Assembly: GCA_902795275.1 (NCBI GenBank) | Contig: CADBKQ010000004.1 | Span: 62,001-126,000, forward strand | Length of the DNA: 64,000 nt | Reading direction: 5' to 3' | From: an uncultured Eubacteriales bacterium | GTDB taxonomy: Bacteria; Bacillota; Clostridia; Christensenellales; Aristaeellaceae | Part shown: positions 13,894-23,096 of the stretch, one piece after another | Layout: every line of letters begins with the position of its first letter | Numbering within the stretch: the stretch's first letter is position 1 | The notes under the pieces: generated by a model | Database searches by the model: none | Told to the model about the DNA's origin: nothing | Seen by the model: only the letters and a program-made list of their open reading frames with translations | Made by a program: the position numbers and the translations under genes

Positions 13894-13977
13894 TCACTAT
13901 GTATTCGTATATTATGGTAAATGAACCGGTCAGAAATGCCGTTTCCGGGAACATTGGCGAAAAAGCGGAGGAAAAGA

Positions 13978-14550
13978 ATGGAAGGATACACGCCCGAGGA
14001 CAGGGAATTGCTGCGGGAAATGCGGCGGGTGCGCCGCCATCTCAAAGGCAAGCGGCTCTGGTGGGGATTGATTATCTGGGCTTTCCTTTCCGCCATTGTG
14101 GGGTTTATCCTGCTGAACCGCTTTTTCACCCTGGCCGTGGCGCATGGCCCCGGCATGGGGGAGACGGCCCCCGCCGAAAGCGTGGTGCTGTTCCAGCGGC
14201 TCTGGGAGGGGCAGAAGCCCGCTTATGGGGATGTGATCCTGATCGAGCATGAAGAATCATTGGACATTAAGCGCGTGGCCGCCGCGGGCGGCGATGAGGT
14301 GGACCAGGACGAACACGGCCAGCTGACGGTGAACGGCGTGGCGATCCCGGGCTATGACGCGCCCTGGACGGCGGACCTGCCCGAGCAGCCCTTCGTTGTG
14401 CCGGAGGGGGAATACTTCGTGCTGGGCGACCGGTATGACCTGTCCGTTGACAGCCGCAGCCAGATGTTTGGCACCGTACCGGAGGACAGCGTGGTCGGCA
14501 CCGCCACATACATCATTTGGCCCGCGTACCGAATCGGCGCAGTCAGATAG
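13978..14550 (+). CDS. Signal peptidase I homologue lacking the catalytic serine
   Basis: 190 residues with the S26 layout: a cytosolic basic N-terminus, one membrane helix (about 27-47), then the catalytic fold. Box D is present as DIKRVAAAGGDEV with the general-base Lys98, and box E as LGDRYDLSVDSRS (149-161). However the catalytic box reads AHGPGM at 55-60: Gly59 stands where the nucleophilic Ser precedes Met in all active enzymes (compare GTSM in the paralogue at 22506). The Pro-Thr-Leu that normally follows is also lost. It is probably an inactive pseudo-enzyme, perhaps a substrate binder or chaperone for the pilin-like protein. ATG 13978 has GGAGG at normal spacing. Confidence 0.85.
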   Translation: MEGYTPEDRELLREMRRVRRHLKGKRLWWGLIIWAFLSAIVGFILLNRFFTLAVAHGPGMGETAPAESVVLFQRLWEGQKPAYGDVILIEHEESLDIKRVAAAGGDEVDQDEHGQLTVNGVAIPGYDAPWTADLPEQPFVVPEGEYFVLGDRYDLSVDSRSQMFGTVPEDSVVGTATYIIWPAYRIGAVR

Positions 14551-14582
14551 CGTCCAGGCGGGATTCGGAAAGGGAGAATCGG

Positions 14583-15671
14583 ATGAAAAACTTTTTGGTG
14601 CGCCTGCTGTTGTTTTTAATCGTGGCGGCCGGGCTGGCATACCTGCTGTACCCGATCGCCGCCGACCAGTACATGCTGTACGGAAACGCGCCCCTGCTGA
14701 AGACTTACCGGCTGTATGCCGCGGGCCTGGATGCCGCCCGCACAGCTAAAGCAAAAAAAGCAATCGTCGGCTGGAACGGCCGTCAAATGCAGGATGGCAT
14801 CATACCGCTGGAGGAACCTGACCAGAGCAGTCTGGGAAACAGCCAGAGCGGCACGGATCGCATGGCTGAAATACGGGGGGGAGGATCGCCTGGAAAAAAA
14901 TCAAACGTATGGACGGCTCTGCTGTCCGCCGCGAACGGAGGGGTGACGCGGCAGACAATCACCCAAACGCTGGAACGCTTCCTTCGTGCGGGTGGGATGA
15001 TTCAGCCCCTGCGCGTGCAGGATCCGTTTTCCGCTGAATCCGGCAGCGCGGCCTCCCTGCTGCCCGCCGATAAAGACGGCGTGGTGGGCATTCTGGAGGT
15101 GCCGCGTATCGGCGTGATCCTGCCGGTGTATGGCGAACGGACGCCGGCGCATCTGGAATCCGGTCTGTTCTACGGGCCCGGTTCCTCCCTGCCGATTGGC
15201 GGCAGGGGCACGCATTCCCTGCTGGCAGGCAGCGGAGGACTGGAGGCGCCGGAAAACCTGGCCAAGCTGAAGCTGACCGGCCCCAAATTGCTGGAGGACA
15301 TGGATCGGCTGGAACAGGGCGACCTGTTTCTCTTCTCCATCATGGATCAGACCCTGGTCTATCAGGTTGACCGGGTCACAACGGCTCCCGCGGAACAGAC
15401 ATACACATTGGATAGAACGATCTCCAACGGGCAAATGACCGTCGTATCCGCCACGCGGGACGGCGGCAGGCTGATCATCCACGGAAAGAGGATTGCGCCA
15501 AATGAAAACGAGGAGAAGTTTCTTCAGGAAAATGCGGCGACCATACCCCCATACTGGGTGAGTATCCTGGTGCTCGCCGCGCCGCTGATGGCGTTCGGGC
15601 TGTTCACGATGTTTGTGACAGAGTGCGTCAAGCGCCGCCGCTACCGGCTGCCGACGGAGAAAAAAGAGTAA
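14583..15671 (+). CDS. Class C sortase homologue lacking catalytic His and Cys
   Basis: 362 residues with the class C (pilus polymerising) sortase architecture: N-terminal TM (5-24, ending LLYP), extracellular linker, sortase fold from about 165 (GVVGILEVPRIGVILPVYG, SSLPIGGRGTHSLL), and a C-terminal TM with basic tail (about 318-340). The catalytic TGHRGL motif is AGSGGL, so His becomes Ser217. The TLVTCTP motif is VVSATRD, so Cys becomes Ala290. The Arg (RLIIHG, Arg296) is kept. The fold is otherwise well preserved over its full length, which argues against simple decay. It lies between the serine-less signal peptidase and the pilin-like gene. Confidence 0.88.
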   Translation: MKNFLVRLLLFLIVAAGLAYLLYPIAADQYMLYGNAPLLKTYRLYAAGLDAARTAKAKKAIVGWNGRQMQDGIIPLEEPDQSSLGNSQSGTDRMAEIRGGGSPGKKSNVWTALLSAANGGVTRQTITQTLERFLRAGGMIQPLRVQDPFSAESGSAASLLPADKDGVVGILEVPRIGVILPVYGERTPAHLESGLFYGPGSSLPIGGRGTHSLLAGSGGLEAPENLAKLKLTGPKLLEDMDRLEQGDLFLFSIMDQTLVYQVDRVTTAPAEQTYTLDRTISNGQMTVVSATRDGGRLIIHGKRIAPNENEEKFLQENAATIPPYWVSILVLAAPLMAFGLFTMFVTECVKRRRYRLPTEKKE

Positions 15672-15723
15672 GCAATCAGCACTTTAATCATTTGCACTCT
15701 CTTGAAATTTTGCATATAGGAAG

Positions 15724-19386
<3,663 letters not shown>

Positions 19387-19411
19387 TATGTGGAAAGGAT
19401 GGAGTATTCCC

Positions 19412-22078
19412 ATGAAAAACATGAAAGGCGCAAGCATCATGTCTGCCATGAAAAAGTACCTGTCCCTTCTGCTGATCCTGGTTCTCGTGCTTACCCACGC
19501 CCCGCTTTCGGCCCTGGCCGAAAGCGGGCTGGGGGAGGACGGCCAGCTGGAAACGGAAGAGGACATCAGCCTGGATGACGATGAAATCACTCTGGACGAT
19601 GACGAAACCGAAGAAGACGATCTTGAAGTCAGCGATGAAGATCTGGACGTGGAAGTCACGGATCCCGAAGCGGATGAGATTGAAATCATCTACCCCGACG
19701 AGCTGCTGGTGGGCCATCCCACGGTGCTCAAGGGCGACTTCTTCACCGAAATGATCGGCAACGACACCGCGGATATTGACGTCCGCGCACTGATCCACGG
19801 CTACAACTTGGTAAACTGGGATCAGTCCCAGGGCGTGTACGTAATCGACCCCTCTGTTGTGCAGAACGTGAAGGTCATGGAGGACGCGGAGGGAAACCGC
19901 ACCTATTTCCTGGGCCTGTGGGAAGATTTGCAGTACTCCGACGGCACGCCCATCACCGCATGGGACTATGCCTTCTCCCTGCTGCTGATGATGTCCCCGG
20001 AGATTGAGGAAATCGGCGGCAAAATCTACCGCGCCGAGCATATCCTGGGCTACGACGAATACATCACCAAACAGGCCGACACCCTGGGCGGCGTGAGCGT
20101 GCTGAGCGATTACCAGCTTGCCATCACCCTGGACCATGAGTTCCTGCCTTACTTCTTTGAAATCGGCCTGCTCCTGTGCGTGCCTTATCCGATCTCCGAG
20201 ATCGCTCCGGGCTGCAAGGTGTACGACGACGGTTACGGCATCTATATCGGCAACGAGGACAAGAGCATCGAGGAGCCGATCTATACCGCCGAACTGCTGA
20301 AAGAAACCATTCTTAACCCCGATACGGGCTACAACAGCCATCCCAAAGTGGTCAGCGGCCCTTATGTGCTCAACGACTACGACGGCATCACCGCGCACTT
20401 TGAAATCAATCCTTACTTCAAAGGCGCCTGGGTCAACAACTCCCTGCCCGAGGACTTCAACTTCGACATGGACGACTTTGAGGGCGTCGGCACCGGTGAA
20501 GTGAAAAACTACAGCGGCGCCAACTATATCAAGGTGGACCGTCTGGACGAGGACGGGAATGAAGACCCCTTCTACCTGGTGAAGCCCAGCATCAAGTATA
20601 TCTCCTTCTCCGTGGCGGACAACGATACCATGGCGGAAGACCTGACCACCGGCAAATTCAACCTGGTCAACAAAGTGGTATACGGCCCCACCATCCTGGA
20701 ATGCCTGGGCGCGTCCGGCGTGGATGCGGAAACCGCCCTGTCCGTCCTCCCGCTGCCCGGTTCTGAAAAAGAAGAAGCGGAAGATTCCGAAGCCCTGCCC
20801 GAGAAAGAGGAAGAAGAGAAAGCCCTGGACGAAGAGCAGGCCGAGGAAGAAACCGAAGAACCGGAAGAAGAGGAACTGGAAGAGCAGCCGGAAGAAAAAC
20901 CGGAAGAGGAACTGGAAGAAGAACCTGAAAAGGAACCGGAAGAGAAGCTCGAAGAAGATGAATTTACGGAAGCAGCGGATGAGGAATCCGAGGAAAAGGA
21001 GATCCGCTACGCCAAGGCGACCGACTATGGCATCAACAACACGCCTTATCCCCGGATCGGCCTGGCATTCTTCACCTTCTCCTACGACTGGCCCACCGTG
21101 CATGAAATGGAAGTCCGCCAGGCCATCGCCTGGTGTATGGACCGCGACCAGCTGACCTACGACTACTGCCAGGACTTCGGCATCCGGGTGGACGGCTACT
21201 ACGGCATTGAGCAGTGGGAGTACCTGCTGATCACCGGCCAGCTGGATTACCCCATCGTCAACGATCCGGAGAACCCGCTCACCGATGAACAGCTGGAGGA
21301 AGAAACCGCGAAGTGGGAAGCGCTGAGCCTGGATAACCTGGTGCAGTATCATGTTGACCTGGACAAGGCCAATGAACTGCTGGACAACGCCGGCTGGACG
21401 CTGAACCGTGACGGCGAGCCCTACCGCAAGGGCGTGGACGACGTGCGCTGCAAGGAAGTGGACGGCGAGCTGACTGCCCTTGACCTGAAGATGATGTATC
21501 CCGCCGGCAACCACATCGTGGATACCATCCAGGAAAACTTCATCGACAACCTGAACAAGGTCGGCATCCTGCTCACCCTGGTGCCCACCGATATGCAGGA
21601 ACTGTTCTATGCTTACTACCATGAGACCGAACGCACGACCGACATGATCTACCTGGCCACCAACTTCCACGTGATCGTCGATCCGTCCATCACCTACAGC
21701 TGCGACCCCACCGCCGATCACCTGATCTGGAACAACACCTATTCCGACGACGAAGAGCTGTGGCTGGACGCTGTAGATATGCGCAAGACGGAGCCCGGCG
21801 CGGTCTATGAATATGTGACCAAATGGATCACCTTCCAGGAGCGGTACAACGAGGTGCTGCCCTGCATCCCGCTCTACTCCAACATCTACTTTGACTTCTT
21901 CACCGGGATGCTGCAGAACTATCACATTACCGCCCACGTCACCTGGACCCAGGCAATCCTGGAATCCTACTTCGGCGAACCGCCGGAAGAGGAAGAGGGA
22001 GACGCGGACTTTGGTGAAATCTTTATGGACGGCGAAGGCTTCGAGGTGGATGACGAAGACATAGAGATTGACGATTGA
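19412..22078 (+). CDS. Family 5 solute-binding-like protein with acidic insert
   Basis: 888 residues. The start is ATG 19412 with GGAG 7 nt upstream and a signal peptide MSAMKKYLSLLLILVLVLTH to ALAES. The mature N-terminus is very acidic (SLDDDEITLDDD). The body matches oligopeptide/nickel-type binding proteins (SBP_bac_5): YSDGTPITAWDYAFSL, SDYQLAITLDHEF, VVSGPYVLNDYDG, then after a break PRIGLAFFTFSYD and EVRQAIAWCMDRDQL. The two halves are separated by an approximately 80-residue Glu/Pro repeat (449-530, ELEEQPEEKPEEELEEEP style). The C-terminus is again acidic. There is no lipobox and no ABC permease or ATPase nearby, so a structural or adhesive role in the surface locus is as plausible as transport. 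Confidence 0.82.
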   Translation: MKNMKGASIMSAMKKYLSLLLILVLVLTHAPLSALAESGLGEDGQLETEEDISLDDDEITLDDDETEEDDLEVSDEDLDVEVTDPEADEIEIIYPDELLVGHPTVLKGDFFTEMIGNDTADIDVRALIHGYNLVNWDQSQGVYVIDPSVVQNVKVMEDAEGNRTYFLGLWEDLQYSDGTPITAWDYAFSLLLMMSPEIEEIGGKIYRAEHILGYDEYITKQADTLGGVSVLSDYQLAITLDHEFLPYFFEIGLLLCVPYPISEIAPGCKVYDDGYGIYIGNEDKSIEEPIYTAELLKETILNPDTGYNSHPKVVSGPYVLNDYDGITAHFEINPYFKGAWVNNSLPEDFNFDMDDFEGVGTGEVKNYSGANYIKVDRLDEDGNEDPFYLVKPSIKYISFSVADNDTMAEDLTTGKFNLVNKVVYGPTILECLGASGVDAETALSVLPLPGSEKEEAEDSEALPEKEEEEKALDEEQAEEETEEPEEEELEEQPEEKPEEELEEEPEKEPEEKLEEDEFTEAADEESEEKEIRYAKATDYGINNTPYPRIGLAFFTFSYDWPTVHEMEVRQAIAWCMDRDQLTYDYCQDFGIRVDGYYGIEQWEYLLITGQLDYPIVNDPENPLTDEQLEEETAKWEALSLDNLVQYHVDLDKANELLDNAGWTLNRDGEPYRKGVDDVRCKEVDGELTALDLKMMYPAGNHIVDTIQENFIDNLNKVGILLTLVPTDMQELFYAYYHETERTTDMIYLATNFHVIVDPSITYSCDPTADHLIWNNTYSDDEELWLDAVDMRKTEPGAVYEYVTKWITFQERYNEVLPCIPLYSNIYFDFFTGMLQNYHITAHVTWTQAILESYFGEPPEEEEGDADFGEIFMDGEGFEVDDEDIEIDD

Positions 22079-22124
22079 TCGGTAAAGAACCACGTCGTCA
22101 GCGCGGGGAGAATGGAGAGAAACA

Positions 22125-22502
22125 GTGGCGAAGGAAAAGCTAAAACGAATGGGCCGGTTTGAACTGCTGGAATTGATTTATCAATTGAAAAAAAGCAATG
22201 AAGAACTGACCTTGCGGTGCAGGGATGCGGAAAAGCAGCTCGATGCCCTGAAAAGGGAAGGCGCCCAGCGGGAAGATAAACTGCGCCGAGAGTATGAAAT
22301 GCGCATTGACGAGCTCCGTATGCAGGGCTCGGCCAAGGATTTGCAGCAGCGCATGAAAAAACTGGAGCAGCAGCTTCTGACTTTCCAGCTCCTCGCAGAC
22401 CAGGATTCTACGGACACCGAGGAAGAACAAACCATCCCGACAGCGGGGAAAGCCACTACGCAGAAGCCTGAAAAAACCATCCCCCAGGAAGAGGGAGAAT
22501 AA
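22125..22502 (+). CDS. Short coiled-coil protein of the surface locus
   Basis: 125 residues starting at GTG 22125 (SD GGAGAG). Residues 8-25 (RMGRFELLELIYQLKKSN) form a conserved-looking amphipathic start, and residues 20-90 a long heptad-type coiled coil rich in Leu, Glu, Lys and Arg. The C-terminal 35 residues are polar and disordered. It has no signal peptide or membrane segment, so it is probably cytosolic or membrane-peripheral. It lies between the binding-protein gene and an active signal peptidase with 3-nt spacing to the latter. Small proteins opening with an (R)-x-ELLE-type motif accompany signal peptidases in other clostridial pilus-like loci; the role is unknown. Confidence 0.8.
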   Translation: MAKEKLKRMGRFELLELIYQLKKSNEELTLRCRDAEKQLDALKREGAQREDKLRREYEMRIDELRMQGSAKDLQQRMKKLEQQLLTFQLLADQDSTDTEEEQTIPTAGKATTQKPEKTIPQEEGE

Positions 22503-22505
22503 ACC

Positions 22506-23096
22506 ATGGCGATGCGGAAAAAGAAAACGTCATTCCCGTCGCTGGAGGAAATCCAGCAGGAAATGACTCGCGTGAAAAGCCAGGGCAGGTATCACCAGGC
22601 GCTGCGCAGCACGGTGAGCACCATCGTGGTGGTGGCGGCCCTGGCGGTTCTGGTGGCGGCGTTGCTTTTGCCCGTAATGCGCGTGATTGGCACTTCCATG
22701 CAGCCGGCATTCCAACCGGGCGATATCATCGTGGCCTATAAAACAGATACTTACCTGCCCGGCGATTTGTGCTGTTTCTATTACAATAACAAGCTGATTG
22801 TGAAGCGCGTGATCGCCATGGGCGGCGACAGGCTGGAGATTGACGATGACGGCCGTGTGACCGTCAATGATCTTCAGCTGGACGAGCCCTACGTGGCGGA
22901 GTACGACTTTGGCCAGTGCGATTTGGACTTTCCCTTTGTGGTCCCGGAAAACACGCTGTTCGTGATGGGCGATAACCGCCCAGTAGCGGTAGACAGCCGA
23001 AGCATCAACTTTGGCTGCATCAACACAGAAGATATGGTCGGCAAGATCATCTTCCGGGTTTGGCCGTTTAACGCGATCGAGTTCTTTGGCCTGTAA
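22506..23096 (+). CDS. lepB: Signal peptidase I, catalytically intact
   Basis: 196 residues, S26 family. A 35-residue cytosolic part and a single membrane helix (about 36-58) are followed by box B with the nucleophile Ser64 (VIGTSMQPAF), box D with Lys100 (LIVKRVIAMGGDRLEI) and box E (VMGDNRPVAVDSRS). All catalytic residues are present, unlike the paralogue at 13978. It likely processes the secreted products of the same locus, possibly including the pilin-like protein. It begins 3 nt after the coiled-coil gene and ends the transcript before a 16-bp terminator stem. Whether it also serves as the housekeeping signal peptidase cannot be told. Confidence 0.93.
   Translation: MAMRKKKTSFPSLEEIQQEMTRVKSQGRYHQALRSTVSTIVVVAALAVLVAALLLPVMRVIGTSMQPAFQPGDIIVAYKTDTYLPGDLCCFYYNNKLIVKRVIAMGGDRLEIDDDGRVTVNDLQLDEPYVAEYDFGQCDLDFPFVVPENTLFVMGDNRPVAVDSRSINFGCINTEDMVGKIIFRVWPFNAIEFFGL

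Follow-up and report, generated by a model that had tools for sequence, protein, structure and literature searches.

A 64,000-nucleotide stretch of contig CADBKQ010000004.1, from an uncultured Eubacteriales bacterium of the Aristaeellaceae (the window, hereafter), carries at positions 13978-23096 a compact six-gene operon that encodes a dead signal peptidase homologue (SPps), a dead class C sortase homologue (SRTps), a pilin-like surface protein, an OppA-like protein, a small protein and a live signal peptidase. Judged by their residues, neither SPps nor SRTps can act by known catalysis, and both still have membrane anchors and the sequence signature of their fold. Both genes are under purifying selection, and both stay beside their cognate pilin-like protein. 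We consider it rather likely that the two are long-conserved pseudoenzymes that serve the pilin-like protein as a non-catalytic platform in the membrane. The pair also probably derives from a SipA/LepA-like peptidase and from the second SrtC beside the third pilin of a sortase pilus island. The earlier note on this DNA, made from its letters alone, had placed the two proteins in a pilin locus; that neighbourhood is real, but the locus reaches further than the note had it, to 23096.

An inactive signal peptidase adjoins an inactive sortase

SPps has the matches of an S26 family member (Peptidase_S26, PF10502, E 6e-22; TIGR02227, E 3e-24) and a single hydrophobic helix, N-terminal in the sequence; its nearest solved structures by sequence are LepA (4k8w) and SipA (4n31). 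Counted from the ATG at 13978 (a second in-frame ATG lies upstream, at 13921), the nucleophile position holds Gly59 in place of Ser (codon GGC, 14152-14154), Lys98 is retained (codon 14269-14271), and the box GDRYDLSVDSR begins at residue 150, leaving Gly59/Lys98 where an active enzyme has its Ser nucleophile and Lys general base. All 23 peptidase homologues compared have a broken dyad, which reads G/K, A/K, S/R, G/R or A/R; the loss is mostly of Ser to Gly or Ala, L130 alone keeps Ser with Lys replaced by Arg, and some members lose both residues. Inactive peptidases in pilus loci are already known. In SipA, Asp48 and Gly85 replace Ser and Lys, no cleavage occurs, the peptide cleft is kept and the protein is essential for pilus polymerisation (PMC4049620; review PMC7900414). 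Like SipA and LepA of the streptococcal pilus islands, SPps is an S26 homologue in a pilin and sortase locus that has lost the dyad; unlike SipA, the peptidases of this family have Gly or Ala with the Lys kept, or Arg for Lys, and whereas the partners of SipA are a live class B sortase and LPXTG-type pilins, SPps adjoins a dead sortase.

SRTps matches the class C sortase profile NF033745 with E 2e-23, which is under that profile's curated cut-off. Numbered from the ATG at 14583, it has Ser217 (AGC, 15231-15233) at the position of the catalytic His and Ala290 (GCC, 15450-15452) at that of the catalytic Cys; of the catalytic His, Cys and Arg, the Arg (Arg296) alone is present. A hydrophobicity scan finds two membrane helices, one N-terminal and one C-terminal, and the sequence has a DPF near the usual lid position. 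The AlphaFold2 model (predicted local distance difference test, pLDDT, 77; predicted template modelling score, pTM, 0.69) placed class C sortase crystal structures at the top of a fold search, with 3g66 best (E 7.5e-15) and 4g1j at TMt 0.78, the comparison of predicted structures that the earlier note had proposed. SRTps is thus like class C SrtC (NF033745; 3g66, 8gr6, 4d7w) in its fold, two membrane helices, DPF near the lid, Arg and flanking motifs, and unlike it in that it lacks the catalytic His and Cys together with their loops, as does the whole dead clade. Cys residues in the window sortase are confined to the C-terminal membrane-proximal segment; rescue by a displaced Cys is ruled out, the sortase domain having none.

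The vacated positions are variable. Among the dead sortases, the His is replaced by S, E, A, N, P or Q, and A, N, G, E, P, Q, T or R is found in place of the Cys; in the genus of the window the two positions read S/A in two sortases and E/N, A/G and N/N in others, and the sortases of a second genus in the family have P for His and E, P or Q for Cys. Over 61 columns that are near-invariant among 23 live class C sortases, the first set of 22 dead sortases compared keeps a mean of 51%, with the His in 0/22, the Cys in 0/22 and the Arg in 19/22. The residues that the earlier note had reported for both proteins (Gly59, Lys98 and a GDRxxSxDSR box; Ser217, Ala290 and the Arg) agree with the window translation, numbering included. 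Residues, helices and profile likewise bear out its class C architecture with both helices, and both frames are open on the + strand, full length and without frameshifts, as it had said.

The losses are shared and the genes are under purifying selection

The gene order recurs in the window genus, where the pseudo-peptidase and pseudo-sortase occur together in eight genomes including that of the window (some contigs of the genus end within the operon), and the operon is also present in the second genus (G132, G212, G285, G315, G342 and G413). Sortase identity to the window protein within the genus is 28-51%. Between close pairs the ratio of non-synonymous to synonymous substitution rates (dN/dS, Nei-Gojobori) spans 0.08-0.24 in the sortase and 0.08-0.22 in the peptidase. 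Metagenome assemblies of Clostridia/Christensenellaceae from rumen, goat reticulum and deer are the source of the related loci, and the compared genera were labelled g1, g35, g40, g383 and g389.

These results answer several points raised in the earlier note. The losses are shared among syntenic homologues in both genera, and the dN/dS values indicate purifying selection; together with the conserved synteny they uphold co-option over decay. Sequencing error or chance is ruled out by the same losses in orthologues from independent genomes. Intact orthologues of the sortase, which the note would have taken as a sign of recent decay, do exist, but in another genus of the family; there they make up the live end of the series described below and do not speak for recent decay.

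A graded series probably leads from a sortase pilus island to the window operon

We searched 308 genomes of the family and found four stages. Stage a (G360, G963, G965, G980 and G982) has a live SrtC, a dead peptidase (Ser to Gly, Lys kept) and a live second SrtC, in most cases with a third pilin that, where its end could be read, carries a DYGxPLWG...KTGDE-type signal and a membrane tail. In stage b (G993; L187 / L190) the second SrtC keeps His and Arg and has Cys replaced by Gly (LVTGTPDGVNSHR); the peptidase of G993 apparently has Arg for Lys, judged by eye. Both peptidase and sortase are dead in stage c (G387, G295, G966, G976, G981 and RUG genomes), and the third pilin, where read, still has DYGTPLWGGLLGTGDETP and the membrane tail. 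Stage d comprises the window genus, the second genus and G929, in which both enzymes are dead, the pilin ends in a Cys tail and an OppA-like gene is present, with the small protein and the signal peptidase where the contig extends far enough. The second SrtC of G993, having lost Cys alone, represents a naturally occurring intermediate on the way to inactivity.

A maximum-likelihood tree (the badly framed row L016 excluded) has 29 fully dead sortases all to one side of a single branch (support 96/93), so one loss of sortase activity suffices. The five live second sortases form one clade (100/99), which together with the Cys-only loss adjoins the dead branch, and the class C homologues inspected outside the family keep TCTPYG-type motifs. 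Enzyme and substrate lost sortase chemistry in the same lineage.

The arrangement is like that of two-sortase islands such as PI-1 of group B Streptococcus (GBS; SrtC1/SrtC2), in which a second class C sortase stands beside a further pilin gene. Such an island is likely to be the ancestral state, surviving in the five stage a genomes; unlike GBS PI-1, the window lineage has a dead second sortase and a pilin without LPXTG. We found no description in the literature of a conserved inactive-sortase clade, of the paired loss or of a Cys-tail pilin with an OppA-like partner (most subscription journals lay outside our search), and as far as we could find a conserved clade of sortase pseudoenzymes is new to the sortase field. 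The family bears on the question of why some pilus islands retain an inactive SipA. Its genomes between them retain each successive step (a dead peptidase beside a live second sortase, loss of Cys, loss of His, loss of the pilin sorting signal), and this series makes it testable how far substrate handling is separate from catalysis in sortase-pilus assembly.

The pilin-like protein ends in a Cys tail that pairs with an OppA-like gene

The pilin-like protein has a signal peptide, a D1-like domain and the Pfam domains FctA, DUF7601 and Cna_B, and its PDB matches include the collagen adhesin B region and ancillary protein 1. The D1-like domain matches SpaD (4hss, E 6e-11) and also SpaA and Spa2 by profile; its model (pLDDT 88) has shaft and basal pilins as best Foldseek matches, and the domain is common to the pilin-like proteins of related loci. 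With its D1-like and Cna_B/isopeptide-type modules the protein is like the Spa-type pilins (SpaD 4hss, SpaA 3hr6, Spa2 7woi); unlike them, it has no LPXTG, its pilin-motif Lys is not conserved and it carries a Cys tail instead. The window protein has no YPKN-type Lys at the corresponding alignment position; about half of its relatives have it. Its sole hydrophobic segment is the signal peptide; by sequence and hydrophobicity scan there is neither an LPXTG nor a C-terminal membrane helix, and the protein ends in DDYGTPLGLGIIINHVGDCFD.

This anchor-less end reads ...PLGxGxxxNxGDCFD in the window lineage. The tail motif, roughly [DE]xYxxPLGxGxxxNxGxCxE, is strictly C-terminal and is carried by large surface proteins of more than one kind in this family, including proteins of genus genomes in which the sortase search gave no match. 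Among 391 genomes of the class searched, the window genome alone was positive, the motif being absent from the 390 others. An alignment by eye sets the tail against the LGTGDETP signal of related loci, VGDC standing against TGDE, and no Thr-Gly scissile pair is left in the tail.

An OppA-like gene of one subfamily comes next after 26 of the 27 tail genes, within about 135 bases, and a census of this subfamily in the genus (17 genomes) found it nearly always adjoining a tail gene. A lipobox scan was negative for 25/27 of these partners, that of the window included; two Cys positions are kept in 24/27 and 22/27, and the C-terminus is acidic-hydrophobic in 18/27. The Cys tail and the OppA-like gene look like an undescribed two-gene surface-display module. 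The tail and OppA-like pairing also occurs without the dead pair, which is an addition to it in some genera and is not required for it. The sole exception to the pairing is L120:2-4354, where a tail protein (FEEYQTALGVETIINHVGDCFD) lies upstream of a live SrtC with no adjoining OppA-like gene. Two tail and OppA-like pairs share one locus in L129, and there the dead peptidase and sortase precede the second pair only.

A possible role in handling the pilin-like protein

Since the pilin-like protein has lost both the LPXTG-type signal and the membrane tail, standard sortase chemistry is unusable by the operon, in which sequence scans found no LPXTG-type pilin and no live SrtC. We suggest that the dead peptidase keeps its peptide-binding cleft and the dead sortase its substrate side, including the conserved Arg. 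Together they would form a membrane-bound platform that captures the newly exported pilin-like protein by its signal-peptide and C-terminal regions and passes it on uncut; the Cys tail appears to work with the dedicated secreted OppA-like protein, and display would probably be non-covalent or via this partner. By analogy with SipA and LepA, a platform or chaperone role would be the best reading for the peptidase, and such a role is plausible for the sortase. More tentatively, the whole series may represent a stepwise conversion of a sortase pilus island to non-catalytic display, with the dead pair as platform, the Cys tail held by the OppA-like protein and no covalent sortase step; this full scenario we regard as possible and no better. 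The earlier proposal of a sortase-independent surface-fibre system stands as regards the lost sorting signal and membrane tail; it is weakened by a live class C sortase and an LPXTG pilin (L022) on another contig of the same genome, and the fibre itself is putative.

Several points weigh against a platform. We found no literature precedent for a sortase acting without catalysis, within the search described above, and binding of SipA to pilin or sortase was sought and not detected (PMC7900414). The window and its nearest orthologue (G004) give dN/dS of 0.52 for the sortase and 0.41 for the peptidase, so parts of the proteins are under looser constraint. The role given to the OppA-like partner is one that gene adjacency suggests, and the pair could serve the genome's live sortase system and not its neighbour. 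In that last case the dead pair would regulate or scaffold live sortase pilus machinery, with the dead sortase binding pilin signals or pairing with live SrtC and setting the order, length or tip composition of the pilus. The second-genus operon does have a live SrtC and an LPXTG pilin as neighbours, other genera have the dead pair immediately between a live SrtC and a third pilin that retains an LGTGD-type signal, and in GBS PI-1 two SrtCs serve three pilins, with minor-pilin incorporation dealt with separately (PMC3166054). In the window genome, however, the live SrtC is encoded on a different contig and the pilin of the operon itself has no sorting signal at all, and we regard a scaffold of this kind as unlikely. 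It is improbable, too, that a live sortase uses the tail as a new short sorting signal which the dead pair simply presents. AbpA of oral streptococci is anchored by live SrtB via a short tail, LPKTS-AVK, with no membrane helix or charged end (PMC4974636), the by-eye alignment with LGTGDETP is compatible with such a signal, and the window genome has other sortases, among which the C40 SrtC is the only one with catalytic residues established. Yet the scissile pair is gone, tail proteins occur where no sortase was matched, and the tail's constant partner is the OppA-like gene, not a sortase.

Two further explanations concern the proteins themselves. Retention of Lys98 in the peptidase and of Arg296 in the sortase might hint that both are catalytic through unusual residues, but several members have Arg for the Lys, either Gly, Ala or Ser can stand at the Ser position, many different residues occupy the sortase His and Cys positions, and the Cys residues of the window sortase all lie outside its domain; we give this very little credence. 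Relaxed decay, leaving functionless remnants of a pilus island, would account for the free drift of the catalytic loops and is hardly credible against full-length frames, low dN/dS, conserved helices and Arg, and synteny conserved at such low identity across the genus and beyond. Pseudogene decay is ruled out by dN/dS, open frames and synteny.

Other features of the locus

The features of the operon are listed in Table 1. A scan for promoters and terminators gave nothing better than shuffled sequences.

Table 1. Positions of the operon's features in the window, with the evidence for each
Feature	Position	Strand	Evidence
SPps, signal peptidase I homologue with broken Ser-Lys dyad	13978..14550	+	PF10502, TIGR02227, alignment, residues
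SRTps, class C sortase homologue without catalytic His and Cys	14583..15671	+	NF033745, PDB sortase C matches, alignments, model and fold search
Pilin-like surface protein, 1220 aa	15724..19386	+	Pfam FctA, Cna_B, DUF7601; hydrophobicity scan; PDB matches
D1-like N-terminal pilin domain	15826..16311	+	Profile match, model and Foldseek
C-terminal tail DDYGTPLGLGIIINHVGDCFD of the pilin-like protein	19321..19383	+	Motif searches
Secreted OppA-like substrate-binding protein, partner gene of tail proteins	19412..22078	+	PF00496 E 1.5e-24; adjacency; genus census; lipobox scan
Small charged protein, operon-conserved	22125..22502	+	Syntenic orthologues
Signal peptidase I, intact Ser64 and Lys100	22506..23096	+	PF10502 E 3e-29; TIGR02227 E 1e-32; residues

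Profile searches with the small protein (22125-22502) returned no significant database family, and its sequence appears coiled-coil in character. The signal peptidase that closes the operon was described as intact in the earlier note, which is correct for the window (Ser64/Lys100) and does not extend to the second genus, where four of the six genomes checked (L118, L119, L121 and L123) have a dead orthologue, with Asn for Ser and Arg for Lys.
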